Assembly (NCBI GenBank): GCA_026770585.1
Contig: MU646534.1
Span: forward strand, 25,306 to 45,764
Reading direction: 5' to 3'
DNA: 20,459 bases
Source: Baffinella frigidus
Taxonomy: Eukaryota > Cryptophyceae > Cryptomonadales > Baffinellaceae
Part shown: positions 3,199 to 20,459 of the stretch, one piece after another
How positions within the stretch are numbered: the first letter of the stretch is position 1
How the letters are laid out: each line of letters starts with the position of its first letter
Notes under the pieces: generated by a model
Told to the model about the DNA's origin: nothing
The model's database searches: none
The model's input: only the letters and a program-made list of their open reading frames with translations
Made by a program: the position numbers and the translations under genes

Positions 3199-3325
3199 GG
3201 CTAGCTCTGCCTCACTCGGGTTGACCGTCCGACTATTCTCAAGTTGGCATGCTGCGTGCGCGGCAACATCCCGTCAACTTTGGAGCGGAAACGAGCCCGG
3301 GCCCACCACATTGGTGAGCCCGAAA
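3199..3325 (+). mobile_element. MITE-like repeat, copy 1
   Basis: This is the first of four related copies of about 120-140 bp. It begins CTAGCTCTGCCTCACTCGGG and includes CCGACTATTCTCAAGTTGG, CATCCCGTCAACTTTGGAGC and GAGCCCGGGCCCACC. Relatives lie at 4544-4681 (inverted), 17265-17385 and 18745-18882. Complete copies end in short inverted CTAGC-type termini. Confidence 0.75.
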
Positions 3326-3660
3326 AGACAGAGACACTGCCAGACGGTGGTTTGGGTATCTGGGCTCTACCTACGGATGCAAGGCTATCCACCTACGGAT
3401 GCAGGGTTATGCGGCTTGACGCGCTCCGTTTCCCAAGAACTTTGTAGCTGGTAAGTTGATCACTTTTCATGAGGCATGAGCGTACTCAAGAAGATGCAGA
3501 AGTTTTCCATCAGGCATCCACATCGCCTCGGGGCAGGGACGAGAATCTGTCAGGGAAACGATAACCACCAACCAGCACAAAAAATCGAAGGACAACGTTT
3601 TTCAGAAAAGGTACTCTCTCTCTCTCGCGGCACACCGAGAGCATTTCTTCGGGGATAGAA
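3326..3660. other. No gene seen
   Basis: The only repeat visible is a short 'CTACGGATGCA(A/G)GGCTATC' duplication at 3370-3410. No coherent exon with splice signals was found on either strand. Confidence 0.4.
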
Positions 3661-3912: not shown

Positions 3913-3939
3913 GGATGAGGGAACCTCGACCCGCAGGCC

Positions 3940-4330
3940 TCCACAGAGCGGCTGCTGGTTCATCCTGCGGGAAACATAGGCACGCACTTCAGATCACGTG
4001 CGTGGGTATTCAGGCCCTAGTCACACAAGGCCTTCGCGGAAGGGAATAAATGGTGGCCATGCTGGTTTCGATCCTTACTAAACGCACGTTTACGTGTCGT
4101 TTCCCTCACTCTTCACTGCCAGGCCGGAGATTTTGTAAAAGTCAATCCACCCACAAATTCTGTCAACTTAGAAGCGAGGTACCCAGAATGGGTACTTCGA
4201 AAATCGATTGTCGCCTTGAGTTGGCTAACACAAAAACTCCACCCTGGCAGTGCACCTCGTTCGACTGCTGGTTCATCCTGCGGGGAACAGAGGGATGCAC
4301 TCCAGATCACGTGCGTGTTTTTTCCCGCAG
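3940..4330 (-). repeat. Duplicated exon-edge candidates (O1 4256-4277, O2 3945-3964)
   Basis: On the minus strand both copies have a pyrimidine tract, CCCGCAG, then GATGAACCAGCAG-CG. The acceptor of O1 ends at 4278 and that of O2 at 3965. O1 is followed 22 nt later by a GAG/GTGCAC donor. Upstream of both acceptors the sequence is also shared (CACGCACGTGATCTG-AGTGC). This looks like one small exon start plus its acceptor, duplicated about 310 bp apart. The reading frame is undecided. Confidence 0.4.
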
Positions 4331-4540
4331 TGATCACTGTTTCCCGCAAACAACATGTTGTTTCCCAGGGAAACACCGTGTTGCTCCCCTCAACCAAGTG
4401 TGGGCACCGCCCCAGTATTTGCGTGAGGCAGGCCTCAGGATTTGTGTGAGGTAAGCCCGCCTCGGGACATGTAGCCCACCACACGAACACTCACGCAGAG
4501 CAACCGTGCGCGGCTGGACAACACACCACTTGAGCAGGTT
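4331..4540. other. No gene seen; short imperfect direct repeats
   Basis: GCCCGCCTCGGGACATGTAGCCC at 4455-4477 shares the CCCGCCTCGG core seen again near 10030, 11015 and 11200. No exon could be supported. Confidence 0.35.
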
Positions 4541-4543
4541 CTA

Positions 4544-4681
4544 GCTCTGTCACAGTTTATTTGGGCTCATCTGGTGAACCCGGGCTCGTCCCCACTCCAA
4601 AGGTGACGGATTTGCACCGCACACCTAGCACAGCACGCCAAGTTGAGAATAATCTGTCAACCCGAGTGAGGCAGCGCTAGA
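4544..4681 (-). mobile_element. MITE-like repeat, copy 2 (inverted)
   Basis: In minus-strand sense it reads CTAGCGCTGCCTCACTCGGG at its start and ends GTGACAGAGCTAG. The termini are thus short inverted repeats, about 138 bp apart. The inside matches copies 1, 3 and 4 (TATTCTCAACTTGGC, ATCCGTCACCTTTGGAG, GAGCCCGGGTTCACC). Confidence 0.75.
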
Positions 4682-7765: not shown

Positions 7766-8002
7766 CTGCACGGGACTTGGCATGGGTGGTCTGTTTTCGT
7801 TCGGGTAGCAACCTGGCACTCCTAGCATGGAGGGCCACGCCCGTTTGAAATGCAGGGAGAGCTCATACGGGCACGGGCAGCAGGCTGCACAGCTGCTACA
7901 ACCGTAGCTGTATTATGTCGCGCAACTGCACCCACGAGAGGAGCACGCGCAAGTGCAAACATGTGTCTATTGGGGTGGCAAGAAAGTGATCAGCCGTCGC
8001 AC

Positions 8003-8046
8003 CTCATCTTGCTGCCCCGCTGTTTCCGACTGAGAGTTGACGACGC
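8003..8046 (-). CDS. Exon Q1 of the second minus-strand gene
   Basis: The acceptor CTCTGGCAG ends at 8047. The exon gives two nucleotides plus VVNSQSETAGQQDE, and the donor is GAG/GTGCGA at 8003/8002. Its first two nucleotides complete the glycine codon started in exon P1 (phase 1 to phase 1), and its end is phase 0, as exon M needs. The duplicate Q2 (10157-10200) differs by V/I and D/N in this stretch. The peptide is a polar, acidic linker, probably cytosolic. Confidence 0.6.
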
Positions 8047-8225
8047 CTGCCAGAGCAGCAGCCACCGTCCCAAATCAGTGTGGTCGCCACGCCCGACACA
8101 CCCCGCGCGCAGTGCCCTCGGCTGCTGCAAGGCTCTTCGGAAATAAAACCCAAACCAGACTGAACCTAGGCGCATCCAACCGGATACACGCACGCAGCGG
8201 GAGCAGCGGCGCTGGGCGGGAGGAC

Positions 8226-8308
8226 CTGGCGCCCCCGCACTTCGCAGCAGCGCTTCGTTGTTGTCCTCGGACATACCGCCAAGGTCGTGGGCAAGGAGAA
8301 CGGACTTT
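8226..8308 (-). CDS. Exon P1 of the second minus-strand gene
   Basis: The acceptor CCCCCAG ends at 8309 and the donor is GCGCCAG/GTCCTC. After one nucleotide the frame gives 27 codons: KSVLLAHDLGGMSEDNNE, then ALLRSAGAP, and one G. The copy P2 (10521-10603) differs by D/E, L/I and S/C plus several silent changes. This pattern of mostly silent or conservative change supports real coding history. The exon precedes Q1 through an intron of about 180 nt. Upstream exons must lie beyond 8308, but that space holds an opposite-strand gene and then a second P/Q pair. Confidence 0.6.
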
Positions 8309-8343
8309 CTGGGGGACACCCTCTGCGGTCAAATTCGGAGGAG

Positions 8344-8418: not shown

Positions 8419-9039
8419 ATGGTCGCGGTGTACAACACCTTCGGCGATGCCGAGGCTGCCGTCGCGCCTAAGGGCAGCACGAAGAAGTACGTGGCTGCCG
8501 TCGCCGCCACCTGGGCCGTGCTCCTCGTGGCCGCCGTGCTGATCGTGGGGTCGGAGAACCAGGCGCCCGCGCGCTCGGTCCTTGCGCAGCGCACCCAGAA
8601 GCTCGCGTTCAAGCCGTTCGTGCCCGATGAGAACGTCTTCGAGAACTTCGATGACGGCTATGATGACTCTATGAAGTACACCTACGACCTGGCCGAGGAG
8701 GCTGACTACAACCAGATCAACATCAACTCCGGTGTCGAGGGCGGCACGGTCGAGGAGGGTATCGCTGACCCCTACGCCGATCAGTCCGCGCGCACCGAGG
8801 TCCCGGCCGCCGTGTACACCCAAGACGCGCCCTACGACCAGTCCGTTGTCGGCCTTGGCGAGAAGGTGTTCGGCGTGCCTTTCCACGAGTACACCCACGC
8901 CGAGGAGGGCGAGGCTGTCATGGGCGAGGAGTACGTCGACACCCCCTTCGACACCACCATCAACTCCGTCCCGGAGCCCAACCCCTCCCGCGAGTGGACC
9001 TCCCTCGACGTGGCGGCCACCGAGAACCCCAACTACTAA
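8419..9039 (+). CDS. Single-pass membrane protein, acidic outer domain, unknown family
   Basis: An uninterrupted 206-residue frame opens with ATG in a CTCATGG context and ends TAA. An upstream in-frame TTG at 8377 is less likely and would lie in a probable 5'-UTR intron. Residues 1-23 are short and basic near the end (KGSTKKY), 24-44 form one hydrophobic helix (VAAVAATWAVLLVAAVLIVG), and 45-206 are acidic and rich in Asp, Glu, Tyr and Asn. By the positive-inside rule the N-terminus is cytosolic and the bulk outside or in a lumen. Almost every codon ends in C or G, unlike the surroundings, which suggests strong selection and perhaps high expression. It has no coding introns, in contrast to its neighbours. 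No family was recognised. Antisense frames across it are shadows. Confidence 0.85.
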   Translation: MVAVYNTFGDAEAAVAPKGSTKKYVAAVAATWAVLLVAAVLIVGSENQAPARSVLAQRTQKLAFKPFVPDENVFENFDDGYDDSMKYTYDLAEEADYNQININSGVEGGTVEEGIADPYADQSARTEVPAAVYTQDAPYDQSVVGLGEKVFGVPFHEYTHAEEGEAVMGEEYVDTPFDTTINSVPEPNPSREWTSLDVAATENPNY

Positions 9040-10138
9040 ATTTTCGGCGAACCGGCCGGGCGTGGGGCGGTCGTGCCCGTGGCATCGATCGTGATCGTGC
9101 CAACAGGTGCGCAGGGTTGCGGCGGTGGGGGGGAGGAAGCGGAGGGGAGGCGAGCGCAGGAGCGCTGCCCTGTTTCTCCTGCTCTTCAGTACCGACTGTC
9201 GAAACGCCCGGCAGACTTGTCAAGTAGAACCCGGTACGTCCGTAGGTGGCTTGCTGCAGGCCTGGGAGCCCGTGGGCTCCGGACCAGCTATTCACGTTCG
9301 GATTAAACTTCATCCTGGGGGAGACCCTTCTCGCTCGGGGCGTTGGCCTTGTTGTCTCTCGTCCCTCGGTTTCTCGATTCGTGCTTGAGGGGGGGCTGCG
9401 TGTGCCGGTGGAAATGCTCGGTGTCTCCCTCATAGTCTTGCCACCCCACACAGCCTCCCCTCCCCACACAGCCTCACCACACAGCTCAACAACAGCGCTG
9501 AGCAGCGTACAGGGTGCGCAGGGCATCATTGCAACCCCCGTGTCATCCATCGTGCGTGCCCTGTGGAGAGAGCAGAGCGAGGTGGCAGCAAGGATGCGGG
9601 GAGGGGACGGATGAGGGGAATCGGTGAGGGTGGAACGCACGGTGGTGCATGCCACCATCGACCCACGGGCCCCTCTGTGACTGCAGCTGGGGCATCTTGC
9701 ATGCAAGATGATCCCGCACCTTGCGAAGTGTACATGTAGGTCCCTACAGGGCGTCAGGTTCGTGTACATGCTTTCGAGACATCTGTGTGTTGATTTTGGC
9801 AAGGAGCAAGCTCTCGTGAAATCGCTGAGCAGCTTGGCCCCGGACCCCCCGCACTCACGGTCGGGTTCAACAGTGCACACCCAGCACTCCCCGGGTGACT
9901 TTCTTGGCACGTCTGGCCGGCATACATGAACGGGTCAGCCACCAGAGGCGATGTTGACATGGCTGTAGTCAGCCTCGTTACATGTACAGGGATATCTGGG
10001 TTTCAAGAACTGTGAGGACCCTCTCGGGACGGGCCCGCCTCGGGCGATAAAAAAATTCACCCGGAACTGAAGAACCCACACCGGATTTGAAGATTCACTT
10101 AAATGAGCAAGAGTTGACTGCAGAGCCTAGAAATATAA
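9040..10138. other. 3' flank and spacer, no second gene supported
   Basis: Includes a G-run (9126-9133) and imperfect palindromes at 9699-9711 (TCTTGCATGCAAGA) and near ACATGTAC. A long minus-strand frame (8960-9910, 316 codons) overlaps the end of the 8419 gene and lacks biased codons or recognisable motifs, so it is not called. CCACACAGCCTC is repeated at 9455-9483. Confidence 0.5.
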
Positions 10139-10156
10139 AGGGATCAACCGTCGCAC

Positions 10157-10200
10157 CTCATTTTGCTGCCCCGCTGTTTCCGACTGAGAGTTGATGACGC
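10157..10200 (-). CDS. Exon copy Q2
   Basis: Same boundaries as Q1: acceptor TGGCAG next to 10200 and donor GAG/GTGCGA at 10157/10156. It reads two nucleotides plus VINSQSETAGQQNE. It is intact and in the same phase as Q1, so it could still be used, as an alternative exon or in a second gene copy. No M-like exon is visible between here and 8419. Confidence 0.5.
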
Positions 10201-10245
10201 CTGCCAGAGCAGCAACCACCGTCCCAATTCAGTGTGGTCGCCACG

Positions 10246-10394
10246 AGAAAAGGGTAGGATGTGGAGTTAGAATCCATCCAGAAATTGCTCGTGTGAGCAG
10301 CCGACACGGGGTACAGTAGTGGCACAATGCGTCGCATGTGCGGCGCTGACGCTGGTTGTTCGGCAATAAATTGTCAATCTCTGCGGCCGCCACG
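10246..10394. mobile_element. 149-bp insertion with 7-10-bp direct repeats in the P2-Q2 intron
   Basis: Relative to the P1-Q1 intron, copy 2 has an extra block starting after GGTCGCCACG (10236-10245) and ending with GGCCGCCACG (10385-10394). The direct repeat (9 of 10 match; CGCCACG perfect) looks like a target-site duplication. The block has no open frame and no clear GT..AG ends, so it is not an obvious introner. Confidence 0.6.
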
Positions 10395-10520
10395 CCCGGC
10401 GCCCAGTGCGCTTGGCTGCTGCAAGGAACCTCGGAAAGAAAACACAAACCCGACAGAACCTAGGGAGTATCTAACCGGATACACGCACGCGGCAGGAGCA
10501 GCGGGGCTGGGCGGGCGGAC

Positions 10521-10603
10521 CTGGCGCCCCTGCGCTTCGCAGCAGCGCTTCGTTGTTGTCCTCGGACATACCGCCAATCTCGTGGGCAAGGAGAACGCAC
10601 TTT
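10521..10603 (-). CDS. Exon copy P2
   Basis: Same acceptor (CCCCCAG), length (83 nt), phase and donor (CAG/GTCCGC) as P1. It reads KCVLLAHEIGGMSEDNNE, then ALLRSAGAP. Compared with P1 the changes are S/C, D/E, L/I and several third-base differences. The whole block 10139-10611 duplicates 7986-8319. Which copy is used, or whether both are, cannot be told from sequence. Confidence 0.5.
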
Positions 10604-10616
10604 CTGGGGGACAGGG

Positions 10617-11375: not shown

Positions 11376-11750
11376 CAGTCGAGGCTGCCCTCACCGCGTG
11401 AGTGCGGTCGATGGCTCTCCCAGCTGGTCATTCGACTCATTCGACGGATATCCGGTGGAAGCGCGCGCGAAGATTGTGGAAAGATGCCTGCCATTCGCAT
11501 GCGCCCGTCACTGACTGGGTCTAGCTTGACAGGGAATCAGTGGGTCGAGCTTGACAGGGAGTCAGCGGGGAGAAGCAAGGCACAGAACACGGTCCACGAG
11601 AATATGGCTGAAACTGAAGCTATTCCGGCAGTTGTCGGTTTGCCGATTTTCCGACTTGGGATGTTTCGTTGTCCACCACAACACTGGAACTGGTGCAGTT
11701 ACTGAAAAAATCAGACCTTTACAACCTCTTTAACTCGCAAAGTTGGCAAT
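11376..11750. other. Intergenic spacer, no gene supported
   Basis: A GGGTC(T/G)AGCTTGACAGGGA(A/G)TCAG direct repeat is present at 11517-11562. This interval separates the presumed 3' end of the helicase gene from the start side of the second minus-strand gene. Confidence 0.4.
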
Positions 11751-11753
11751 TTT

Positions 11754-11792
11754 TCAAGTCGGAAGCGGCCAGGACCTACCGGGATAGCTCTG
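11754..11792 (-). CDS. Possible terminal exon of the DDX1-like gene
   Basis: Acceptor TTTTCACATACAG ends at 11793. The frame gives QSYPGRSWPLPT and a TGA, in phase 0 with exon H1. It would supply a short C-terminus of about the length that follows the matching Ala-Gln in animal DDX1. Sequence similarity is negligible, so this rests on position, phase and acceptor only. Confidence 0.25.
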   Translation of the reverse strand, partial: QSYPGRSWPLPT

Positions 11793-11833
11793 CTGTATGT
11801 GAAAACGGTCATCAAGTCGGGAACCCTCAGGAC

Positions 11834-11869
11834 CTGCGCAGACGTCTCGATCGCAGCAAGGCGCGGGAC
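11834..11869 (-). pseudogene. DDX1: Partial exon copy H3
   Basis: Retains only the 3' edge of exon H ([10 protein letters not shown]) with its donor CAG/GTCCTG. Upstream it joins the dispersed repeat 11870-12012. Confidence 0.65.
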
Positions 11870-12012
11870 AACCACTTAGCAGGCGACGAGTTCCTTTTCG
11901 CCCGTATTTCCAGGCAAAAATCCGTTGAAATCCAGTGCAATGGATACGATTCTGGTACAAATCGTTGAGATAGACTGTATCCGTGAAGCCCCCGGTGGCT
12001 GCTAAGTGGCGG
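11870..12012 (+). repeat. Dispersed repeat, copy 2 (with 531-700)
   Basis: Matches 531-700 in order and orientation (see that entry). It lies in the intron between exon copies H2 and H3. Confidence 0.75.
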
Positions 12013-12108
12013 GCGCAGCGGTCGATTTCGACCGGAATAGCTCCAAAGCCCGCCCGAAACCCAAAACGCCAAATCCCAGATTTGGTTCACTTCTGAGGGC
12101 TATGGGAC

Positions 12109-12195
12109 CTGCGCAGACGTCTCGATCGCTGCGAGGCGTTGGACGACCGGGCGCAGGGCATCCACGTGCTCTCCCGTCACCAGGGGAGCCCCCTG
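12109..12195 (-). pseudogene. DDX1: Exon copy H2, nearly complete
   Basis: Reads [18 protein letters not shown], then [11 protein letters not shown], in frame, with donor CAG/GTCCCA. It lacks the first two codons (EQ) and has Pro for Ser compared with H1. ACACAG at its start could serve as an acceptor, giving an in-frame alternative exon, so it may not be dead. Confidence 0.65.
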
Positions 12196-12331
12196 TGTCT
12201 AACACCCACCAGCGTGTGTCTAACACTCCCCAGGGTGTGTCTAACACTCCCCATGGTGTGTCTAACACTCCCCAGGGTGTGTCTAACACTCCCCATGGTG
12301 TGTCTAACACTCGCCGGGATGTGTCGAACAC
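12196..12331. repeat. 21-bp minisatellite derived from the H1 donor region
   Basis: About six units of TGTGTCTAACACTCCCCA(T/G)GG. In minus sense each starts GTGTTAGACAC, close to the H1 donor context GTGTTCGACAC. The same GTGTCTAACAC/GTGTTAGACAC core forms a second array at 18468-18700. Confidence 0.85.
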
Positions 12332-12424
12332 CTGAGCAGACGTCTCGATGGCAGCAAGGCGCTGGACGACCGGGCGTAACGCATCCACGTGCTCCCCCGT
12401 CACCAGCGAGGCGCCCTGCTGCTC
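12332..12424 (-). CDS. DDX1: DDX1 exon H1 (C-terminal tail)
   Basis: Acceptor AACCAG next to 12424, donor CAG/GTGTTC. There are 31 codons, [20 protein letters not shown] then [11 protein letters not shown]. It matches the animal DDX1 tail around GHVDILAPTVQELAALE. It follows three 5'-edge copies (12697-12731, 12590-12618, 12503-12537) and precedes two 3'-edge copies. Confidence 0.75.
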
Positions 12425-13748
12425 CTGGTTGAGAGTTGAGGGTTGAGGGCCTGGTGCAGGATGTACATCGTGAAACCTACGCCTGGACCCTAAACCAAGC
12501 AGCGCTCCCCTGTAGCCAGAGATACCCCCTGCTGCTCCTAGAGTGAGGTTTGAGGGTTGAGGGCCTGGTGCAGGGTGTACACCCTAACCCCCGTCACTAG
12601 TGAGGCACCCTGCGGCTCCTGGCGTAGGGTTGAGGGTTGAGTGCCTGGTGCATGGTGTAAACCCTAAAACCTAGGCGTAAACCCTCAATCAAGCAACGCT
12701 CCCCTGTAACCAGCTAGGCGCTTTGCTGCTCCTGACGTGGGGTTGGGGGTTTAGGGCCTGGTGCAGGGTGTAAATCCTAAAACATAAGCCTAAACGGCCG
12801 CCCTCCATGACCTTTTGCTCGGGCATCGATTGTTTTCTGAACCAGAGGAGAAGGGTGGGGGGGGGGCGGGGAGGAATTGGCAGAAAGGAGGTACCAATAT
12901 GAAATTCCATCGCGCTCGAGCGTTCAATTCTGAAATTCTATTCTGAACCGGAGGAGGCTCGCTCGAGCATTGATTTTATTCTGAACCGGCGGAGGATGGA
13001 GGGGTGGGGGGAGAAAAGAGGTACCTCGCCGAACTTCAAGTTGAGGAGATCTGGTCGGAGGGTGAGGGATGGCGGCATCCGCTCGACTGATTTGCCCAGC
13101 AGCGTCTCTACCTGTTGGAAGAGACGAATTTTGAGAGAGTGAGAGAGCGGCAATCATTTTTCAGACGCAACGATTCTTGAGAGGGTGTGTGTGTGTGGTG
13201 GTGGTGGTGGTGGTGGGGGGAGATGGAGAAGAGACACAGAAGAGAGAGGGAGAGAGAGGGAGAGGGAGAGAGAGAGAGCAAACGAGAGAGAAAGAGAGAG
13301 AGAGAGAGAGCGAGAGAGAGACCTTGATTGATACCAACATGGCCATCGACTAGAATGTCAAGGAAATCGGGCCTGAACATCGAAACTTGTTCAAATGCAG
13401 ACGTCTATGAATCTCACTGCCGCACTCGACGTGCGTGACATCGGCAGAAGAATGGACACGTTAGCATTCGCAGTGTAAACTCTGGCTTCGTGAGGACGCA
13501 TTCACAGGCAGATCGGGGGGCAACACTGGGGTGAGTTGGAAGAGGCAATCAGAGCCCTACACCATAAACCCATGAACCCTCACGCCACGAAAGCAAAGGC
13601 TGACACACGAAGATAAGGTGCTCGAAGCTCTACGGCTTCGAACCTGAACCTTAAACTCTAACCCCTGACCCCTCAACGCTCAACGCTCACCGTTCAACGC
13701 TCAACGCTCAACGCTCAACGCTCAACCCCGAACCCTGAACCCTGAACC

Positions 13749-13787
<39 letters not shown>

Positions 13788-16700
13788 ACCCTGAACCCTA
13801 AACCTTCCAACCACCGAACCTGTTTCAGCAGTCCAGGCTCGTCATACCAAACGCAGTTCCCCCCCTTATCATAGTCCCGCGTATCCTCACAAGGTGGCGA
13901 ACCTGAACCGTAAACCCCAAATCCTGAACCCTAAACCCTAAACCCTGAACCCTACACCCTAACCCCTACACCCTGCTCCCTCCACCCTAAACCCTAAACC
14001 ACCGAACCTGTTTCAGAAGTCCCGGCTCGTCATACCAAACGCAGTTGCCCCCCTTATCATAGTCCCGCGTATCCTCACAAGGCGGCGCCCGCCCCCCCGG
14101 CCCGCGCCCCTTCACGCCTTTTTGGCAGAACCACACGCGCTCCTGCCCAAGAAGGGTTGAGAGCTCAGGGAGGGTGAAGGGTTGAGGAAGGAGAGAGGAG
14201 GGGGGTCACGTAGCGACGCCCTGGCACCGTGCGACCAGACGGAAAAGGCCATAAGGCCAAAAGAGGCGTGCCGGGATTTTCAGCGGGTGCAGTTTGGTGA
14301 GAGTCGAACTGGAACCGGGGTTCATTCGCAACAACAACGTCAAAGCAAAGCGCCCGATGCGGTGAGTGTAGTTTGCAGGGCCACGAAAACAATGACACAA
14401 TGGGTAACGTTAATGGTTCAGCACAAGCATCGTCAAAATTTGCCATCATTTTATCCTTTTCGTGGCCAACAGATGAGAAAACCGCGCTAGACCTTGGCTG
14501 TGGCGACGAGGGAGATCGCCAGGCCCATCTTGTCAGCGCGACCCACGCGTCCGATGCGGTGGATGTAGTTCGCTGGCGTGTCGGGCAGCGTCACGTTCAC
14601 CTGCCAGCTCCACGCTAGGTCACAAGTACGAATTTCAAACGCAACGTTCCGTGCTCAAAGTGTTTCGTGGTTCGGATGAAATATTGTTGCGCCCGTGAAT
14701 GGCTCCAAGGGCTAGACACGAGCCCGATGCGGTGGATGTACTTTGCTGGCGTGTCGGGCAGCGTCACATTCACCTGCCAGCTCCACGCCAGGTCACAAGT
14801 GCGAATTTGCCTAAAGTAAATTATTTTGCCTTTTCCAGGAACACGCCAAACGTCGGTCATTGAGACCATTCCTGGGTGCAATAATGTTTCATTTGCACCA
14901 GGAACTACTTTTGAGAGCGCCCGATGCGGTAGATGTAGTTTGCTGGCGTGTCGGGCAGCGTCACGTTCACCTGCCGGAGAGAAAGTTGCATTCAATAAGG
15001 ACCTTGTCCGGATAAGACAGCAGCCGCAGGAACGTCCAACCGTGTCCGGATAAGTCAACACCTGGGATAAGTCTACACCTGTTGGAATGTCCCCACGCGC
15101 CCGATACGCGGAACATGCCAAAAGTCGGCAATTGGAGCCATTCCTGGGCGCAATAATGTTTCATTTGCACCAGGAAACACTTTGAAAAGCACCCGATACG
15201 GTGGATGTAGTTTGCGAGGGTGTCGGGCGTCATATCCACCTGCTAGCTCCACCACCACTCAGACCGCCCATCTCTCCCTGCACGGAGCCTAAGCTTTCCA
15301 CGGTCGTACCTAGCTGATTCCTCTCGGCCCAAAGCCATCAGAAGGAGCACCACCCACGACTCCGGACTAGTTTCAGGATTATGTGCGAGGTTACCAGCAA
15401 CCTCCACCACCACCCAGACTCAGAGCACCACCCAGCATCCATGACGCAGAGCACCACCCAGCATCCATGACTAGTCTCAGGATTCTGTGCGACCAAGCTG
15501 GTCCGGTTTCACTAAACCGTGCACGTTTTGTCACAGGACAGTACATAATGTATTCCGAGCGGGCGTTTACCACGTAGGGGAGGCCGGAGATGTCGATGCC
15601 CCGCGCACCAGAAATGTCGATTTTACCACCTATATGAGGCCCAAAAAGTCGAGTTTGTACTGCTCCAGCCCTCGCGTCACCCCCTATAGGGTCCGGAAAT
15701 GTCGAGTTTACCACGTCAGGCCGGAGATGTCGAAGCTGCGGGCAGCGACGTCGGTCGCAACTAAGAACTGCACATCGCCGTCCAATTTCGCAGAGTTCGT
15801 GACCACTCTCACGAAAGTTACTACACATATGTTACAACTCACTTTTAAATACGCCCCTCTAGCATTCTCGTGTGGTGTGGGGTCCGGACATGTCGAGTTT
15901 ACCACGTAGAGGAGGCCGGAGATGTCGATGCTGCGGGCAGCGACGTCAGTTGCGACTAAGAACCGCACGTCGCCGTCCGACAATGTCAATTCTACCACGT
16001 ATGGGGGGCCCGAGATGTCGACTTGACCACCTATGAGAGGCCTGGAATGTCGATTGTACCACCTGTAAGAGGCCCGAAAAGTCGAGTTTGCCACCTATGG
16101 GGTCCGGGAATGTCGAGTTTACCACGTAGGGGAGGCCGGAAATGTCGATGCCCCGCGCAGCCACGTCTGTCGCGACCAGGAACCGCACGTCGCCATCCTT
16201 GAATGACTGGGGGTGTGGGGGTGTAGGGTTTAGGGTTTAGGGTTAAGGGTTGGGGGTTTAGGGTTTGGGGTTTAGGGTTTGGGGTTTAGGGTTTAGGGTT
16301 TAGGGTTGAGGGTTGAGGGTTTACGGTTTAATGTTCAGGTTTTGCGAGTGAGAGGGAGGGCGCTTCATGCTTGGTTCGGTTTGAACTAACGCGCATCGCT
16401 CGAAGGACGCGGTCGAGTTTGCTTTCTCTGAGAGAAACCTGGTGGATAGAACAAAGGTTTTTTGAGGAGGGGTCAGGGTTTAGGGTTTAGGGTTCAGAGT
16501 TCAGGGTTCAGGGATTAGGGGTCAGGGTTTAAGGTTTAAGGGTTATGATTTAGCATTTGGGGTTCGGGGGTTGAGTTTGGGTTTGGGGTTGGGGGTTTGT
16601 TGTTTGGGGTTTGGGGTTAATGATTGAGGATTTGGTGTTTGGGTTTAAGGTTCAGGGTTAATGATTTTGGATTGGGGGGGTTGGGTTGTGGATAAAGGGT

Positions 16701-19601
16701 AAGGGCACCTGGAGGTTAGCGCGGCGTTCTTCGACAGATCGCCAGCCCGCGAGGACCACGCACGAGTACGGCTTCTCCTCCATCAAAACCCCTTCCATAT
16801 AACTTGTAGCCCGAACCGACTACATCTGCGCGTATGCATGCCTGCAAAGACAACATGCACCTCCTTATGGTACCTGCACGTTGGCGCTCCTCCACACATG
16901 GCACTCTGCAGAACCGCAAACTGCTGGCCTGGACCACATAACACCCCACGAAAAAGAAGAAGAAAAAAAAACCCGGGGTGTTCGCGGAGGGCACCTGGAG
17001 GTTAGCGCGGCGCTCTTCAACAGATCGCCATCCCGCGAGGACCACGCACGAGTACGGATTCTCCCTGCCTTTCTCCGCCTGACCCCCCCCCCCACACGCT
17101 TCAGTGCCAAACCCACGGTCCATGTCTGTCACACAGTGGGCTTCCAAGAAAAAACTCCGGTCGAAACGTCGGTTAATAAAATGTCTTTGTACGGGGTAAT
17201 TCTCCCTGATCGGGACCCACGCTTCAGTGCCACCACACGGTCCACGTCCGTGACACAGTCGAGGTCCGTCCGCCTCACTCGGGTTGCCCGACTATTCTCA
17301 ACTTGGCATGCTGGGTTCGCGGTGCACATCCGTCAACTTTGGAGCAGACAAGAGCCCGGGCTCCCCAAAGTGGTAAGCCACAACAGACTAAGACGGAGAT
17401 AGGTACAGCGAACCTTACTGCGAAACGTGCTGCCTCCCAAAGAGTTGAAGTGCCCCTCGAGATTGTCCCTAAACCCCACACCAAAAACGCACAACCTAGA
17501 ACACGTGTCCTAGTCACCGGCGGAAAGCACCCAGCCTACAACACGTTGCGAAGCCCTCCGGCGGAAGACAAAGCAAAGACAGAGCAAAAACACCCTGAAC
17601 CCATACGGTTTGAGTATACGGTTGAGAACACGCAAGGCAGTCACGACCGACCGTCTGGCTTCGGCGTCCGTTCACGAGCCTGCCGGCGGGGCTGTTCCAC
17701 GCTCGTAACCTAACTGGGCCTCATAACCTCACAACCTGGGAGAAACCCATACGGTTTGAGTATACGGTTGAGAACACGCAAGGCAGTCACGACCGACCGT
17801 CTGGCTTCGGCGTCCGTTCACGAGCCTGCCGGCGGGGCTGTTCCACGCTCGTAACCTAACTGGGCCTCATAACCTCACAACCTGGGAGAAACCCATACGG
17901 TTTGAGTATACGGTTGAGAACACGCAAGGCAGTCACGACCGACCGTCTGGCTTCGGCGTCCGTTCACGAGCCTGCCGGCGGGGCTGTTCCACGGCGACTA
18001 GCCTGCTGGCAGCGCTGTCTGGCAGGGGTGGGACACGCACCTTGGGCCGCATCAGGGCGTTGATGCGTAAGGTGCCACACAGCTATCCACCAGATAGCCC
18101 ATACACCCTAACCCAGGATCCATGCACCTTGCCGCGGAACTTGCTGCCGCCCAGAGAGTTGAAGTGCTTTTCGAGGTTGTCGCAGTCGAGGTTCGTTCGG
18201 CAGAAGACGAGGCAGTGGTCCATCTTGATAGCATCCACCAGCTGCCAACATGTTAAAAGTTGATAGTTTGGTACCAGCATCATTTCGGCATTGTTTGTTA
18301 TTTTCGGCATTGTTTTTTATTTTCGTTTTTCGCATGGTTTATTATTTTCGCTTCTCGACTTGTGGCATCGTTTCATTATTTTCGCTTCTCGAGGTTGTCG
18401 CAGTCGAGGTTCGTTCGGAAGAAGACCAGACAGTGGTCCATCTTGATCGCATCTACCAGCTGTGATACACGAGTGTCAGACACACCTATGCGGGTGTTTG
18501 ACACACATATGCGGATATTGGACACGCCCGATCGAGTGTTAGACCCCCTCCCCGCCGTGTCTAACACACCCAGGCGAGTATTAGACACAGGGTGTCGCAG
18601 TCGAGGTTGGTCAGGCAGAAAACTAGACAGTGTTCCATCCTGATCGCGTCTACCAGCTGTGTTCGACACACCCGGGCGAGTGTTAGACACTGTATGAACC
18701 TGAAAACGGAGTCGGGGGCGGGTGAAAAGGGGGCAGGTGGGAGCCTAGCGATGCCTCACTCGGGTCCATCAACTATTCTCAAGTTAACATGCTGGATCCC
18801 CGGTACACATCCGTCAAAATTTGAGCGGAAACGAGCCCAGGCCCACCAAATTGGCGAGCCGCAATAGACTCAGCAGAGCTAGGAAGCGGGGGGCGCGGAG
18901 GCTTTCCTGGACCAGTCGCGCCAGCTTGAGCCGTTTGATGCCCTCTGACCGACTCTGCGTGCCACCACAATGCCAAAAGTCAACATTTCAGTACCCCCAC
19001 CGTCATCGTTTGGCATTGTTTCCTATTTTTCGGTGGCCAACAGATGCGGAAGCCGCTCCATGGACCGATGATCAAGGGCAGTTCAGTTTGAGAGGTCTGA
19101 TTGTCTTCGACTGAGGCTGTGTGGCAACACATCATTACACCATTACACCATTACACCATTACACCATTACACCATTATACCATTGCACTTTCACATGATC
19201 AACACGATTCGGGACGCGGGTCTGCAAGCAGTAGAACAGTGTTGCGTGTCGCGAGGCGGGCCACTCAAACGCCATCCCTACAGTGGTCCCCCAATGGTTT
19301 ATGGTTTGGGTTTTAGGTTTTAGGTTTTAGGGTTTAGGGTTTAGAGTGTAGGGTTTAGGGTTTAGGGTGCAGGGTTTAGGGTTTAGGGTTTAGGGTTTAG
19401 GGTTTAGGGTTTGGACTTGAGGGTTTGAGGGTTGAAGGTTGAGGGTGGAGGGTGGAGGGTTGAGGGTGGAAGGTGGAGAGTTGAGGGCGGAGGGTGGAGG
19501 ATTGAGGGTTGATGGTTGAGGGTTGAGCGTTGAATGGCGATTACCAGCGGGGAGGGGTTCTGCGGCTCGAGCTTCTTCTGAGCGTCGTCCTGGACGTGCA
19601 C
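12332..19601 (-). CDS. DDX1: DDX1-like DEAD-box RNA helicase, 3' part of gene (nine exons)
   Basis: Complete exons in order are 19601-19545, 18954-18907, 18241-18128, 17078-16995, 16206-16123, 14600-14493, 14142-14008, 13111-13025 and 12424-12332. They total 270 codons, all phase 0. The product covers the second RecA-like domain: motif IV region [14 protein letters not shown], motif [12 protein letters not shown], motif [22 protein letters not shown], then the DDX1-type C-terminal tail ([28 protein letters not shown]). DDX1 proteins are ATP-dependent RNA helicases acting in RNA processing and tRNA ligase complexes in animals. The DNLE and GGNC-WY signatures separate this from other DEAD-box families. 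The SPRY, Q, I, II and III motifs are off the right edge. Introns are 350-1520 nt and filled with partial exon copies. Weak points are the donor after 18907 (GA) and the one after 14493 (GTCTAG), so a decayed gene cannot be ruled out. Confidence 0.8.
12425..12800 (+). repeat. Telomere-like repeats with three copies of the exon H 5' edge
   Basis: Units of about 80-113 bp alternate GGGTTGAGGGTTTAGGGCCTGG-type sequence with a minus-strand acceptor plus the start of exon H. 12731-12697 reads EQQSA, TAG, LVTGE; 12618-12590 reads [10 protein letters not shown]; 12537-12503 reads [11 protein letters not shown]. Acceptors are CAG, CAG and TAG. Only the fourth copy, H1, is complete. Confidence 0.75.
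12815..13000 (-). repeat. Tandem copies of the exon G donor region
   Basis: GCTCG-GC-TTGATT...TTCTGAACC-G-GGAGG occurs at 12816, 12913 and 12955, preceded by GGTACC in the first and third. In minus sense, 12885-12912 ends in ATTG/GTACCTCCTTTC, echoing the true exon G edge GAG/GTACCTCTTTTC. It is a broken copy of the exon end plus donor and early intron. Confidence 0.6.
13025..13111 (-). CDS. DDX1: DDX1 exon G1
   Basis: A pyrimidine tract TCTCTTCCAACAG ends at 13112, and the donor is GAG/GTACCT. There are 29 codons: [20 protein letters not shown] then DLLNLKFGE. It follows LLKQ of exon F1 in phase 0 and corresponds to the DDX1 segment with IEEHLN...; conservation in this part is low across the family, so the call leans on position, phase and splice signals. 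Confidence 0.6.
13185..13320. repeat. Compound microsatellite (GT/GGT/GA)
   Basis: GTGTGTG, then GGTGGTGG, then long GAGA tracts. In minus sense it is the pyrimidine-rich region upstream of exon G1. At 13321-13348 the sequence CTTGATTGATACCAACATGGCCATC resembles the 3' edge of the L copies near 4890 and 5020. Confidence 0.9.
13349..13630. other. Intron sequence, nothing identified
   Basis: Lies between exon copies F2 and G1. No exon copy or strong repeat was seen. Confidence 0.4.
13640..13812 (-). repeat. CAACGCT/CAACCCT and CCCTGAA telomere-like arrays
   Basis: TCAACGC heptamers (13672-13725) run into CCCTGAA/CCCTCAA heptamers (13726-13800). The C-rich strand is on plus, the opposite orientation to the arrays at 12425-12800, 16215 and 19310. 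Confidence 0.85.
13820..13897 (-). pseudogene. DDX1: Exon copy F2, 5'-truncated
   Basis: Reads [20 protein letters not shown] then PGLLKQ, in frame, with the same CAG/GTTCGG donor as F1. It lacks the first 19 codons. GGTTCAG just before it might act as an acceptor. It is separated from F1 by about 110 bp of CCCTAAA-type repeats. Confidence 0.7.
13898..14007 (-). repeat. CCCTAAA/CCCTACA telomere-like tract between exon copies F1 and F2
   Basis: Heptamers CCCTAAA, CCCTGAA, CCCTACA and CCCTAAC fill the space. ACCACCGAACCTGTTTCAG is repeated at both sides (13812 and 14000), marking the unit of tandem duplication (about 188 bp). Confidence 0.85.
14008..14142 (-). CDS. DDX1: DDX1 exon F1
   Basis: Acceptor GGGCAG next to 14142, donor AAACAG/GTTCGG. 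There are 45 codons: [45 protein letters not shown]. In DDX1 the segment after motif VI is K-VW-H-C...GK-C-NT-L-E-GGC-IWY-E, and the order VWF, then GGNCVWYDE, matches. A Gly/Pro/Arg-rich insert sits between them. Confidence 0.75.
14349..14376 (-). pseudogene. DDX1: Partial exon copy E5
   Basis: Reads [10 protein letters not shown] and breaks at the same place as the other partial E copies. It lies after the complete exon in gene order. Confidence 0.55.
14430..14482 (-). repeat. Intron repeat shared with 18995-19052
   Basis: Both contain TTTGCCAT/TTTGGCATT, a TTTTCG run and GTGGCCAACAGATG-GGAA. One lies downstream of exon E4, the other upstream of exon A. Confidence 0.6.
14493..14600 (-). 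CDS. DDX1: DDX1 exon E4 (motif VI), complete
   Basis: Acceptor GAGCTGGCAG next to 14600. There are 36 codons: [20 protein letters not shown] then [24 protein letters not shown] is helicase motif VI, which contacts ATP and links hydrolysis to RNA unwinding. The donor reads AAG/GTCTAG, a weak GT site. It joins exon D1 as GLPYV/VNVTLPD, exactly the DDX1 order, and exon F1 as ATAK/ERVWF. Four incomplete copies flank it. Confidence 0.85.
14640..14773 (-). pseudogene. DDX1: Partial exon copy E3 with inverted insert
   Basis: Acceptor GAGCTGGCAG next to 14773; reads [19 protein letters not shown] and then stops matching. The following 75 nt (14716-14640) is the inverted form of the element found after E1 and E2. 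About 32 nt of intron before the acceptor is shared with E4 (ACTTGTGACCT-GCGTGGAG). Confidence 0.7.
14838..14970 (-). pseudogene. DDX1: Partial exon copy E2 with insert
   Basis: Acceptor TCTCCGGCAG next to 14970; reads [18 protein letters not shown], then TCTCAAAAG-AGTTCCTGGTGC, the same element as in E1. Confidence 0.7.
15095..15239 (-). pseudogene. DDX1: Partial exon copy E1 interrupted by a 92-bp insert
   Basis: Acceptor CTAGCAG next to 15239; reads [16 protein letters not shown] (one codon lost), then the insert, then RIGRVG resumes at 15108-15093. The direct repeat CCCGATACG at 15192-15200 and 15100-15108 brackets the insert like a target-site duplication. Confidence 0.7.
15380..15480 (+). 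repeat. Short direct repeats
   Basis: AGCACCACCCAGCATCCATGAC occurs twice (15424, 15449). A related AGCACCACCCACGACTCCGGACTAGTTTCAGGATT..TGTGCGA occurs at 15346 and 15466 onward. Confidence 0.7.
15571..15606 (-). pseudogene. DDX1: Partial exon copy D4
   Basis: Keeps [12 protein letters not shown] and the donor GTG/GTAAAC; the 5' part is missing. Confidence 0.7.
15712..15783 (-). pseudogene. DDX1: Exon copy D3, frameshifted
   Basis: Reads [20 protein letters not shown] then GL, after which 5 nt missing before ACGTG/GTAAAC break the frame. The conserved Gly of motif V (ARG) is Ser. Confidence 0.7.
15903..15980 (-). pseudogene. DDX1: Exon copy D2
   Basis: Reads [20 protein letters not shown] then SGLLYV with an intact GTG/GTAAAC donor. 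It lacks the acceptor and SFK start. Gly to Ser in motif V and Pro to Leu make it unlikely to work in a helicase. Confidence 0.7.
16123..16206 (-). CDS. DDX1: DDX1 exon D1 (motif V), complete
   Basis: Acceptor CCCCCAG next to 16206, donor TACGTG/GTAAAC. There are 28 codons: [20 protein letters not shown] then [19 protein letters not shown] is motif V of DEAD-box helicases. It follows exon C1 (RRANLQ/SFKDG) and precedes E4. Three decayed copies follow in the intron. Confidence 0.85.
16215..16690 (+). repeat. Telomere-like TTTAGGG/TTTGGGG intronic tract
   Basis: Two blocks (16224-16340 and 16466-16690) are made of TTTAGGG, TTTGGGG, GTTCAGGG and GTTGAGGG units, split by about 110 bp of ordinary sequence. 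They lie in the intron between exon C copies and exon D1. Confidence 0.85.
16709..16776 (-). pseudogene. DDX1: Exon copy C2, 5'-truncated
   Basis: Reads [18 protein letters not shown] then RANLQ with the same CAG/GTGCCC donor as C1, but lacks the AEKGR start and a clear CAG acceptor. A GAG could serve as a weak acceptor. Confidence 0.65.
16777..16990. other. Intron between C1 and C2
   Basis: Contains an A-rich run (about 16948-16972). No exon or known repeat was identified. Confidence 0.4.
16995..17078 (-). CDS. DDX1: DDX1 exon C1, complete
   Basis: Acceptor GGTCAG next to 17078 (behind a poly-G rather than pyrimidine tract), donor CAG/GTGCCC. There are 28 codons: [20 protein letters not shown] then EERRANLQ. 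It corresponds to FSCVCLHG-R-HERKQNLE in animal DDX1 and joins exon B3 (FRGK/AEKG) in phase 0. Confidence 0.8.
17265..17385 (+). mobile_element. MITE-like repeat, copy 3
   Basis: Contains GCCTCACTCGGGTTGCCCG, ACTATTCTCAACTTGGCATG, CATCCGTCAACTTTGGAGC and GAGCCCGGG. The CTAGC end is not evident here. Confidence 0.7.
17414..17467 (-). pseudogene. DDX1: Partial exon copy B4 (3' half)
   Basis: Reads [18 protein letters not shown] followed by a GTTCGC donor. It is the 3' half of exon B, the complement of copies B1 and B2, which keep the 5' half. Confidence 0.7.
17600..17992 (+). repeat. 146-bp tandem repeat, 2.7 identical units
   Basis: Units begin CCATACGGTTTGAGTATACG at 17601, 17747 and 17893. 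The period is exactly 146 bp and the units appear identical over their shared length, so the duplication is recent. It lies in the intron between exons B3 and C1. Confidence 0.95.
18128..18241 (-). CDS. DDX1: DDX1 exon B3 (motif IV region), complete
   Basis: Acceptor TTGGCAG next to 18241, donor AAG/GTGCAT. There are 38 codons: [20 protein letters not shown] then [18 protein letters not shown]. The IFCRTK-DCDNLE signature is characteristic of DDX1. Two 5'-half copies lie upstream and one 3'-half copy downstream in gene order. Confidence 0.85.
18270..18384 (-). repeat. Short intronic repeats
   Basis: TTTCGGCATTGTTT-TTATTTTCG and TTATTTTCGCTTCTCGA are each repeated two or three times. They are related to the GGCATTGTTTCCTATTTTTCG segment at 19010-19030. 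Confidence 0.6.
18385..18459 (-). pseudogene. DDX1: Partial exon copy B2 (5' half)
   Basis: Acceptor ATCACAG next to 18459; reads [20 protein letters not shown] then DNLEK and breaks into intron repeat. One Cys to Phe change. Confidence 0.75.
18468..18700. repeat. GTGTCTAACAC/GTGTTAGACAC array
   Basis: Direct and inverted copies of an 11-bp core at about 20-25-bp spacing surround exon copy B1. It is the same family as the minisatellite at 12196-12331. Confidence 0.75.
18594..18656 (-). pseudogene. DDX1: Partial exon copy B1 (5' half)
   Basis: Acceptor GAACACAG next to 18656; reads [20 protein letters not shown] then D and breaks into the GTGTCTAA array. The Arg of CRT is Leu. Confidence 0.7.
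18745..18882 (+). mobile_element. MITE-like repeat, copy 4
   Basis: Begins CTAGCGATGCCTCACTCGGG and ends CTCAGCAGAGCTAG, so the termini are imperfect inverted repeats. It is about 138 bp, the same length as copy 2. It lies in the intron just downstream of exon A. Confidence 0.75.
18907..18954 (-). CDS. DDX1: DDX1 exon A
   Basis: Acceptor GGCACGCAG next to 18954. There are 16 codons, [16 protein letters not shown]. With exon B3 it makes [23 protein letters not shown], the same length as the SEAIKILK...KMDQ stretch of animal DDX1. The base pair after CAG is GA, not GT. An alternative GTCCAG donor two codons earlier is possible. So this exon is either spliced at a non-canonical site or damaged. 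Confidence 0.6.
18995..19052 (-). repeat. Intron repeat shared with 14430-14482
   Basis: GGCATTGTTTCCTATTTTTCG then GTGGCCAACAGATG-GGAA; see the other copy. Confidence 0.6.
19133..19185 (+). repeat. ATTACACC 8-bp tandem repeat
   Basis: Six to seven units of CATTACAC, the last ones mutated. Confidence 0.9.
19300..19540 (+). repeat. TTTAGGG tract grading into GGGTGGA/GGGTTGA heptamers
   Basis: 19311-19412 is mostly TTTAGGG. 19413-19535 is GGGTTGAGGGTGGA-type. It abuts the donor of exon Z1. Confidence 0.9.
19545..19601 (-). CDS. DDX1: DDX1 exon Z1
   Basis: Acceptor GGGATGTAG next to 19601, donor CTG/GTAATC. There are 19 codons: [19 protein letters not shown]. It corresponds to the DDX1 stretch VHAKDN...SP just before SEAIK and joins exon A in phase 0. 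Two 5'-edge copies lie upstream. Confidence 0.55.
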
Positions 19602-19662
19602 CTACATCCCCGGGATCCTTCAGTTTAATTTAATTTCGCAAGATCACTGCAACAGTCCCACT

Positions 19663-19800
19663 TTTCACGTGCACCTTCATCCCTGGGAACATCAATCCTT
19701 CAATTGGAGTGATCCTTCAACTTAATTCAGCATTGATCTTTCAATACAATTGCGTTGTACGCCGTACTAAATCCGCACTTGGCGTGCACCTCCACCCGGG
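19663..19800 (-). pseudogene. DDX1: Exon-edge copies Z2 and Z3
   Basis: 19674-19663 reads VHVK after CAGGGATGAAG. 19789-19778 reads VHAK after CCCGGGTGGAG. Each keeps only the acceptor region and first four codons of exon Z, in AT-rich intron sequence (AATTTAATTT motifs). Confidence 0.5.
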
Positions 19801-19888
19801 AATATCGATTTAATTTAATCGATTTGATTCAATTCAAGACATTTAACTCAATTAATTTGACGGCTGCACCCAACCTCGCACATGGGAA

Positions 19889-19936
19889 CGCAACGAACAG
19901 ATGGTGCAGCGTCTCTGGCACCGAATCCTTGCTCAC
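19889..19936 (-). pseudogene. DDX1: Partial DDX1 exon W
   Basis: Reads SKDSVPETLHHLFVA, matching the EDSVPDTVHHVVV stretch after the SAT motif of DDX1. It has no clear donor at its end and loses similarity after LFVA. Probably a truncated copy whose complete form would overlap exon X or lie beyond the window. Confidence 0.55.
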
Positions 19937-20350: not shown

Positions 20351-20388
20351 ACATCTCGTTGGTAGGATACGCTCCCATGCCCCCTCAC

Positions 20389-20423
20389 GACGCGTCATCC
20401 ACAGGGTCTACGTCCACCACCAG
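20389..20423 (-). CDS. DDX1: Partial DDX1 exon X (3' edge)
   Basis: Reads LVVDVDPVDDA plus two nucleotides before a good GTGAGG donor. Animal DDX1 has VVV-VNP--D at this place, directly after the HH of exon W. Upstream (20424-20459) is a pyrimidine-rich stretch without an AG acceptor or the expected HH codons, so this may be a 5'-truncated copy. It ends in phase 2, unlike the other exons. Confidence 0.35.
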
Positions 20424-20459
20424 GAAGAGGGGAGGAGGGGGAAGAGTGGGGGGTTGGGG

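Follow-up and report, generated by a model that had tools for sequence, protein, structure and literature searches.

The growth of introns is usually attributed to transposons or simple repeats, and tandem exon duplication with mutually exclusive splicing places a second copy beside its exon. In the potato RdRp gene, intron gain has been traced to the local tandem duplication of an intron-exon piece with a 3' splice site (PMC4974935). For the repeat-expansion introns of Cryptococcus, unequal crossing over, conversion or slippage has been proposed to multiply intron-containing units (PMC2395259), and the 90-bp exon arrays of Tetrahymena represent genome-wide local exon duplication, with an extreme intron phase bias and with unequal crossing over as the proposed cause (PMC6564038). 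In addition, introners are dispersed intron-generating transposable elements that are a source of much new intron sequence (PMC9860276).

The locus described here lies in a stretch of 20,459 nucleotides of the Baffinella frigidus genome (hereafter the window), where truncated copies of DDX1 exons occupy the introns beside their complete exons. As in potato RdRp, going by the available text of that report (PMC4974935), local tandem duplication takes in exon sequence together with splice signals; unlike in potato, where a new intron forms, the complete DDX1 exon remains unsplit and the extra piece, one of many per gene, lies in an existing intron. The tandem-duplication intron gain of Rogers, in which an exon is split and splice sites arise at a duplicated AGGT, does not describe the ten DDX1 exons, which are unsplit. 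The Cryptococcus introns are identical and belong to one repetitive gene, and truncated exon edges or a rule for their side are not described in the available text (PMC2395259). The Tetrahymena arrays, as outlined in theirs, consist of complete exons lengthening repeat proteins (PMC6564038), whereas the fragments described here are concealed within the introns of ordinary genes; and unlike introners, as characterised in the text available (PMC9860276), the DDX1 pieces stay beside their own exon. Only exon K and its second copy would qualify as mutually exclusive tandem exons, the other DDX1 copies being truncated, with one splice site missing. A literature search of titles and abstracts, in which subscription journals were thinly covered, returned no description of exon-edge fragment arrays in introns or of the side rule, by which a fragment is located beside that end of the complete exon which it retains or to which it comes nearer. 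The first-pass annotation had known of no named system like this one; tandem-duplication introns, repeat-expansion introns and exon arrays are known, and the available texts of those reports contain no account of exon-edge fragments within introns (PMC4974935, PMC2395259, PMC6564038). The system is known in kind.

The DDX1 gene and its complete exons

Exons C to L on the minus strand (11437-19601) represent the C-terminal half of a gene assigned to DDX1 by its closest sequence relatives. Ten complete in-frame exons, from C (19601-19545) to L (11487-11437), join into 285 codons including the stop, a coherent DDX1 C-terminal half as the first-pass annotation had read it; the gene span given there, 12332-19601, was corrected to run from 11437 to beyond the window end. 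The comparison with DDX1 proteins proposed in that annotation was run as tblastn with P0001, P0002 and P0006; the exons lined up in order along the minus strand, with weak matches for the single exons C (E 0.022, P0001), D (E 0.029) and L (E 0.11, P0002). The hand-joined 227-aa product was 80% identical to P0001 over 89%; its two top matches among those listed were 80% and 68% identical, and proteins named DDX1 were numerous among the 120 of its 1131 matches that were listed. The first named relatives among the matches listed were from the green alga Tetrabaena socialis (60% over 80%) and the cryptophyte Hanusia phi (63% over 56%), and one peptide stretch was nearly identical in the window product, Hanusia phi, P0001 and P0002 and absent from Tetrabaena, which would suggest a cryptophyte-like alga. 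The closest solved structure for exons G-H was 8tbx_A, named DDX1 (E 7.9e-29; runner-up 4.1e-18). DDX1 characteristically carries a SPRY insertion in its N-terminal DEAD domain; the upstream half of the gene lies outside the window, and the readable part of the flank was without DDX1 match.

Besides exon C, which is delimited by splice sites and frame in addition to tblastn, the complete exons located by tblastn and frame were D (18913-18954), E (18128-18241), F (16995-17078), G (16123-16206, also matched by Pfam Helicase_C), H (14493-14600), I (14008-14142), J (13025-13111) and K (12332-12424), followed by the last exon, L, with its acceptor, frame and stop. Each of the ten is a multiple of 3, so that the nine introns between them (11437-19601) are all phase 0. 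Exon B gave two weak partial matches in tblastn, a 5' part at 19892-19930 (E 0.05) and a 3' part with an in-frame stop at 20352-20447 (E 0.029), and no complete exon B was found in the window. The donor of exon D (18913) is poor, as CTG/GTCCAG costs two residues present in P0001 and the expected position reads CAG/GAAAGC. This weak or non-canonical donor means that the DDX1 gene may not be entirely intact; judged by its intact frames, it appears to be functional.

Exon fragments and the side on which they lie

All ten complete exons were searched against the window on both strands (cut-off E<=0.01, self excluded). This revealed 19 partial copies, all on the gene strand and none on the other, compared with a chance expectation of 0.13 matches per window (mean of 30 Markov shuffles). 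All 19 fall between their flanking complete exons, which bears out the earlier statement that the copies adjoin their own exon and are never out of order. They derive from six of the ten complete exons (E 3, F 1, G 5, H 4, I 1 and K 5), and exons D, J and L had no copies in the window at this cut-off on either strand. Eight exons with copies, the number named in the first-pass annotation, are reached with these six, exon B with its two weak partial matches, and exon C, for which two short 5'-edge copies with acceptor (GATGAAG/GTGCACGTG at about 19675 and GGTGGAG/GTGCACGCC at about 19790, within 19640-19830) were seen by eye, with no statistic.

All copies lie on the minus strand. Exon E has two 5'-edge copies upstream, at 18589-18656 (nt 1-68, 82%, E 3e-14) and 18384-18459 (nt 1-76, 92%, E 9e-23), and one 3'-edge copy downstream, at 17414-17467 (nt 61-114, 81%, E 7e-10), and the single copy of exon F keeps the 3' edge and lies downstream at 16709-16778 (nt 15-84, 94%, E 4e-22). 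Two of the G copies (16054-16028 and 16021-15996) belong to 32-bp tandem units across the exon G/intron boundary (15977-16148, period 32, 5.4 copies), and the other three are 3'-edge copies downstream, at 15903-15985 (nt 2-84, 83%, E 4e-19), 15700-15783 (nt 9-84 with a small deletion, edge by reading; nt 9-74 80%, E 1e-12) and 15571-15619 (nt 35-84, 88%, E 6e-11). Exon H has three 5' copies upstream, at 15193-15240 (edge by reading; nt 15-50 86%, E 2e-6), 14917-14970 (nt 1-54, 94%, E 6e-16) and 14708-14773 (nt 1-66 with 35 nt of shared intron, 86%, E 6e-16), and an internal copy without an edge at 14350-14379 (nt 25-54, 83%, E 7e-4). The copy of exon I at 13820-13899 (nt 56-135, 95%, E 4e-26) keeps the 3' edge and forms part of a 188-bp tandem duplication. 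Upstream of exon K, three 5'-edge copies (12731-12698, 12618-12588 and 12537-12504; E 1e-5 to 6e-4) lie in a 194-bp tandem array (12504-12731), and a 3'-edge copy lies downstream at 11834-11873 (nt 54-93, 90%, E 4e-9). Moreover, a second copy of K at 12109-12195 (85%, E 1e-21) is nearly complete and in frame, with the acceptor ACACAG/ (12192) and the donor /GTCCCA, and its 12192-12109 part is a candidate alternative exon. The gap between K and this copy (12193-12331) consists throughout of a 21-bp minisatellite, which starts with GT and ends with AG exactly at the exon edges; a related repeat, GTGTCTAACAC, flanks the exon E copies (18470-18690).

By reading of the sequence, AG is kept in all eight 5'-edge copies and GT in all ten 3'-edge copies, so the description of copies that retain one exon edge with its splice site was accurate. 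That exactly one full-length copy of each exon exists was correct in so far as ten complete exons are present, with the second, nearly complete in-frame copy of K as the departure, and the phrase that the introns are built from exon copies was overstated, given that recognisable copies make up 1041 of the 7310 intron bases between C and L (14%). Two copies, G 16054 and K 12731, show decay in the form of in-frame stops. In the copies of E (three), F and K (two downstream), homology ends 2-7 nt beyond the splice site, and the exon parts are 81-94% alike.

The side rule was obeyed by 18 of the 19 DDX1 fragments, the exception being the internal H piece without an edge, and by 32 of 34 in four other gene groups (LpxB 10/12, SPB4-like helicase 5/5, CCT loci 4/4, HSP70 loci 13/13), where exon limits are protein-match limits instead of splice sites and the side was scored by the nearer end. 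Altogether, 50 of 53 truncated copies lie on the side of the end that they keep or approach, as local tandem duplication predicts; counted by exon-side clusters, the figure is 24/26, and the rule is independent of the strand on which a locus is read. The rule would follow if each duplicated piece began or ended within the exon, with its opposite end in the adjoining intron.

Exon fragments are also present in LpxB, an SPB4-like helicase and 7 of 27 CCT and HSP70 loci. The LpxB gene in L012 (Pfam 3.5e-19; relatives P0142, P0143 and P0221) has 12 fragments of four exons in gene order; the match of its last exon, 'e8', meets a stop, and the complete exon may lie outside the readable stretch. In the same locus (3920-4094), an LpxB exon copy is split at about nt 59 by a GT...AG stretch, like an intron gain in one copy. 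The SPB4-like helicase in L022, on another contig, has five fragments, one of which (DEAD2, 69%) is weak and out of gene order, and L020 gave two Pfam matches below the cut-offs, with no gene identified. Three Pfam families were picked blind to the loci: PF00562 had no match in the genome, and PF00118 and PF00012 gave the 27 loci, with same-strand fragments within 1.5 kb at 3/10 CCT and 4/17 HSP70 loci (6/17 if the inverted HSP70 pair L033/L034 is not excluded as fragments) and none within that distance at the other 20. This excluded pair (G000:C709:130108-134621) consists of two divergent HSP70 genes with uninterrupted full-length matches and equal scores, identical over the 634 nt compared. 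Loci L003-L010 are not in the counts, and L022 was scanned with Pfam on its plus strand. The clearest case is the HSP70 locus L045, in which the exon is flanked on its left by four left-end pieces and on its right by three right-end pieces; 2/4 left fragments end and 3/3 right fragments begin at exon nt 36, and 2/3 right-hand fragments directly follow a short ...GTAG end.

Local duplication, silent sites and competing origins

With simple and telomere-like repeats masked and pairs below 25 bp dropped, the window holds 45 local direct and four local inverted repeat pairs, and no local direct pair appeared in 20 shuffles. Local direct pairs amount to 3.55 per kb in the DDX1 part, 1.14 per kb in the first half of the window and 2.2-3.7 per kb in five other genome stretches of which 3 kb or more could be read (L019, whose 410 readable bases contain no pair, was left out). 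Local direct pairs take in 58% of the unmasked exon bases and 42% of the remaining unmasked bases, the latter indicating that duplications are not confined to exons. In DDX1, all 19 copies are same-strand and beside their source, as local tandem duplication predicts; L021 is an exception to the direct bias, with 20 direct and 23 inverted local pairs. Whole-period tandem units of 32 bp (exon G), 188 bp (exon I) and 194 bp (upstream of exon K) were identified, and whole-period homology is absent at E, F and K downstream. A simple tandem duplication of recent date would be expected to bring matching intron along, and the short homology at these three places counts against such an origin.

We consider it probable that this is an intact-frame DDX1 gene in a genome continually making short, same-strand, local duplications, whose fragments are hidden by splicing. 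The genome would keep producing such duplications, and a duplicated piece with one end in an exon and the other in the adjoining intron would yield a complete exon plus a truncated copy with a splice site: a piece reaching from the upstream intron into the exon would leave the 5' part upstream with its 5' edge, and one reaching from inside the exon into the next intron would leave the 3' part downstream with its 3' edge. Splicing would still use the complete exon, so that the fragment would be tolerated, decay and enlarge the intron, duplications within a coding exon would alter the protein and be lost, and repeated rounds would build fragment stacks in gene order. We infer that the molecular step is slippage, unequal exchange or one-sided break repair and that splicing provides the tolerance; templated one-sided break repair would yield the same products. 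The repeated local tandem duplication of exon edges proposed in the first-pass annotation remains the best reading and predicts the side rule, and it has to be qualified by the 14% share of copies in the intron bases, by the repeats beyond exons, and by amino-acid changes that are too few for copies born broken. Counted against our own model are the excess of silent differences, the 3/53 breaks of the side rule, the out-of-order SPB4-like fragment, the 20/27 loci without fragments and the exon D donor.

The silent excess was assessed with one copy per cluster against the complete exon in eight of the nine exon-side clusters (H downstream, with 10 codons, was left out), which gave 45 silent and 20 other differences (69% silent). 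If the exon were constrained and the copy neutral from birth, 40-45% silent would be expected, and the observed value was reached in 0/400 simulations under each of three mutation settings, so that copies neutral and dead from birth were rejected. Dead copies of the neighbouring exon are therefore too simple a description. Differences common to at least two copies were 20 silent to 1 not, compared with 33:31 for unique differences (Fisher P 0.0002) and 14 silent to 10 not at sites covered by one copy. The pN/pS over 16 copies ranged from 0.00 to 0.24, except for H 14773 at 0.77, which shows the opposite trend (3 silent, 6 not), partly where the copy passes the common break. In addition, a codon-phase test with 500 reshufflings was run on pairs that had at least three differences and were neither redundant nor overlapping nor telomere-like. 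The observed value was reached by 0 reshufflings for the DDX1 region, 5 for L012, 6 for L020, 33 for L022, 77 for L011, 365 for L021 and 403 for the window's first half; codon phase is thus not a universal mark of coding copies. The silent bias indicates that most fragments were long part of a functional exon after parting, or that the present exon changes fast at silent sites, and it suggests that, for some of the time since they separated, fragment and exon were each a functional version. The bias would be compatible with exchange between diverged alleles or with error-prone recopying, and the exchanged pieces were probably not always identical. Together with introns at E, F and K downstream that are unmatched past 2-7 nt, the bias points to exchange with a diverged version, or to old events and fast intron turnover.

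A specific form of the main explanation that would account for the silent bias is a break inside the exon, one-sided copying from a diverged allele or gene version, and end joining, leaving half an exon beside a fresh whole one. We hold this tentatively, as a possibility favoured by the contrast between shared and unique differences, by a silent divergence that fits a single value over the eight clusters (pooled 0.34, P 0.15, from few sites), and by two left and all three right fragments of L045 meeting at exon nt 36. A silent divergence of about 0.3 is, however, very high for alleles, and the break points of 5' and 3' fragments differ at K and in L042. A second DDX1 gene as the source of the copies is disfavoured, as none was found among 25 candidates scored in the searchable part of the genome, where 10/14 matches lie in C231 and the other four cover the helicase core only. 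A wider and rather doubtful version would make exons genome-wide seeds of intron growth through recurrent breaks or exchanges, sometimes at a preferred point, with the exon restored in full by copying a diverged homologue or by error-prone repair synthesis, and with the broken half left in the intron; if true, intron growth would be coupled to fast silent-site turnover of exons.

It is unlikely that complete exons were duplicated, long used as alternative exons and broken only later. Exon K and its in-frame copy with both splice sites, which are separated by 12 silent changes and one of another kind, would fit such a history, as would the lengths of the ten complete exons in multiples of 3, but random breakage would not give a side rule obeyed by 50/53, and K is the sole DDX1 exon whose second copy is near-complete and bears both splice sites. 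If the assembly had joined haplotype ends that were diverged and unmerged, the side rule and the silent bias would also be expected; we regard such an assembly artefact as highly improbable, as the window contains 0 N, C231 spans 423,270 bases in a 382-Mb assembly of 1364 contigs, the fragments have decayed to in-frame stops, with an inserted element in an H copy, unit arrays of 32, 188 and 194 bp are present, and an estimated 20 or so false joins in 9 kb would be needed. The placing of exon pieces by introner-like elements or transposition appears very unlikely. A small element with a repeated target in one H copy, the GT...AG minisatellite that occupies the interval from K to its copy throughout, and the ...GTAG ends before right-hand L045 fragments are compatible with it, whereas exon pieces (E<=0.01) occur only beside their own exon and on one strand, and DDX1-specific matches only in C231 in a genome search with exon sequence; introner insertion was accordingly disfavoured.

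Intron growth by small tandem duplications that begin within exons appears to be common in this genome. With our preferred model of continual local duplication, the ordinary genes of this alga would preserve a legible history of exon-edge duplications, in which the side rule tests the mechanism and the silent-site signal could date and source each duplication event. Furthermore, with genes filled with intact decoy splice sites, this alga would offer a natural test of how the spliceosome chooses exons.

Other repeats and the first half of the window

Cryptophyte genomes often consist of more than 50% repeats, according to the available text of one report (PMC12220804). In the window, a 146-bp unit inside an intron (17598-17993) is repeated 2.7 times at 100% identity, which would be very recent or an assembly effect, and an element of about 130 bp is dispersed over four places, in one of them inverted (3201-3344, 4540-4680, 17269-17403 and 18745-18883). 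By reading, an exon H copy (within 15100-15240) contains an element of about 75 bp whose core resembles a hairpin and which has CGTATCGGGYGC on both sides; a related copy of the element lies at about 14902.

Pfam gave one match in the first half of the window, below the cut-off, and the same method detects Helicase_C in the DDX1 half; Rfam and tRNA scans of the window found nothing. Of the viral contig scans, one gave no relative and another gave one contig (L001), which had no blastn match to the window, and the prokaryote contig scan gave one bacterial helicase (L002). An intronless gene of 206 aa (8419-9036) is free of overlap with the 13 local direct pairs in its window half, in keeping with our preferred model. 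It belongs to no Pfam family, has 20 relatives besides itself from sources including mmetsp and eukprot, is reported on two contigs, of which the longer, at 573 kb, exceeds C231 in length, and is flanked by two block pairs that are 94% and 88% alike (7983-8318 and 10137-10613).
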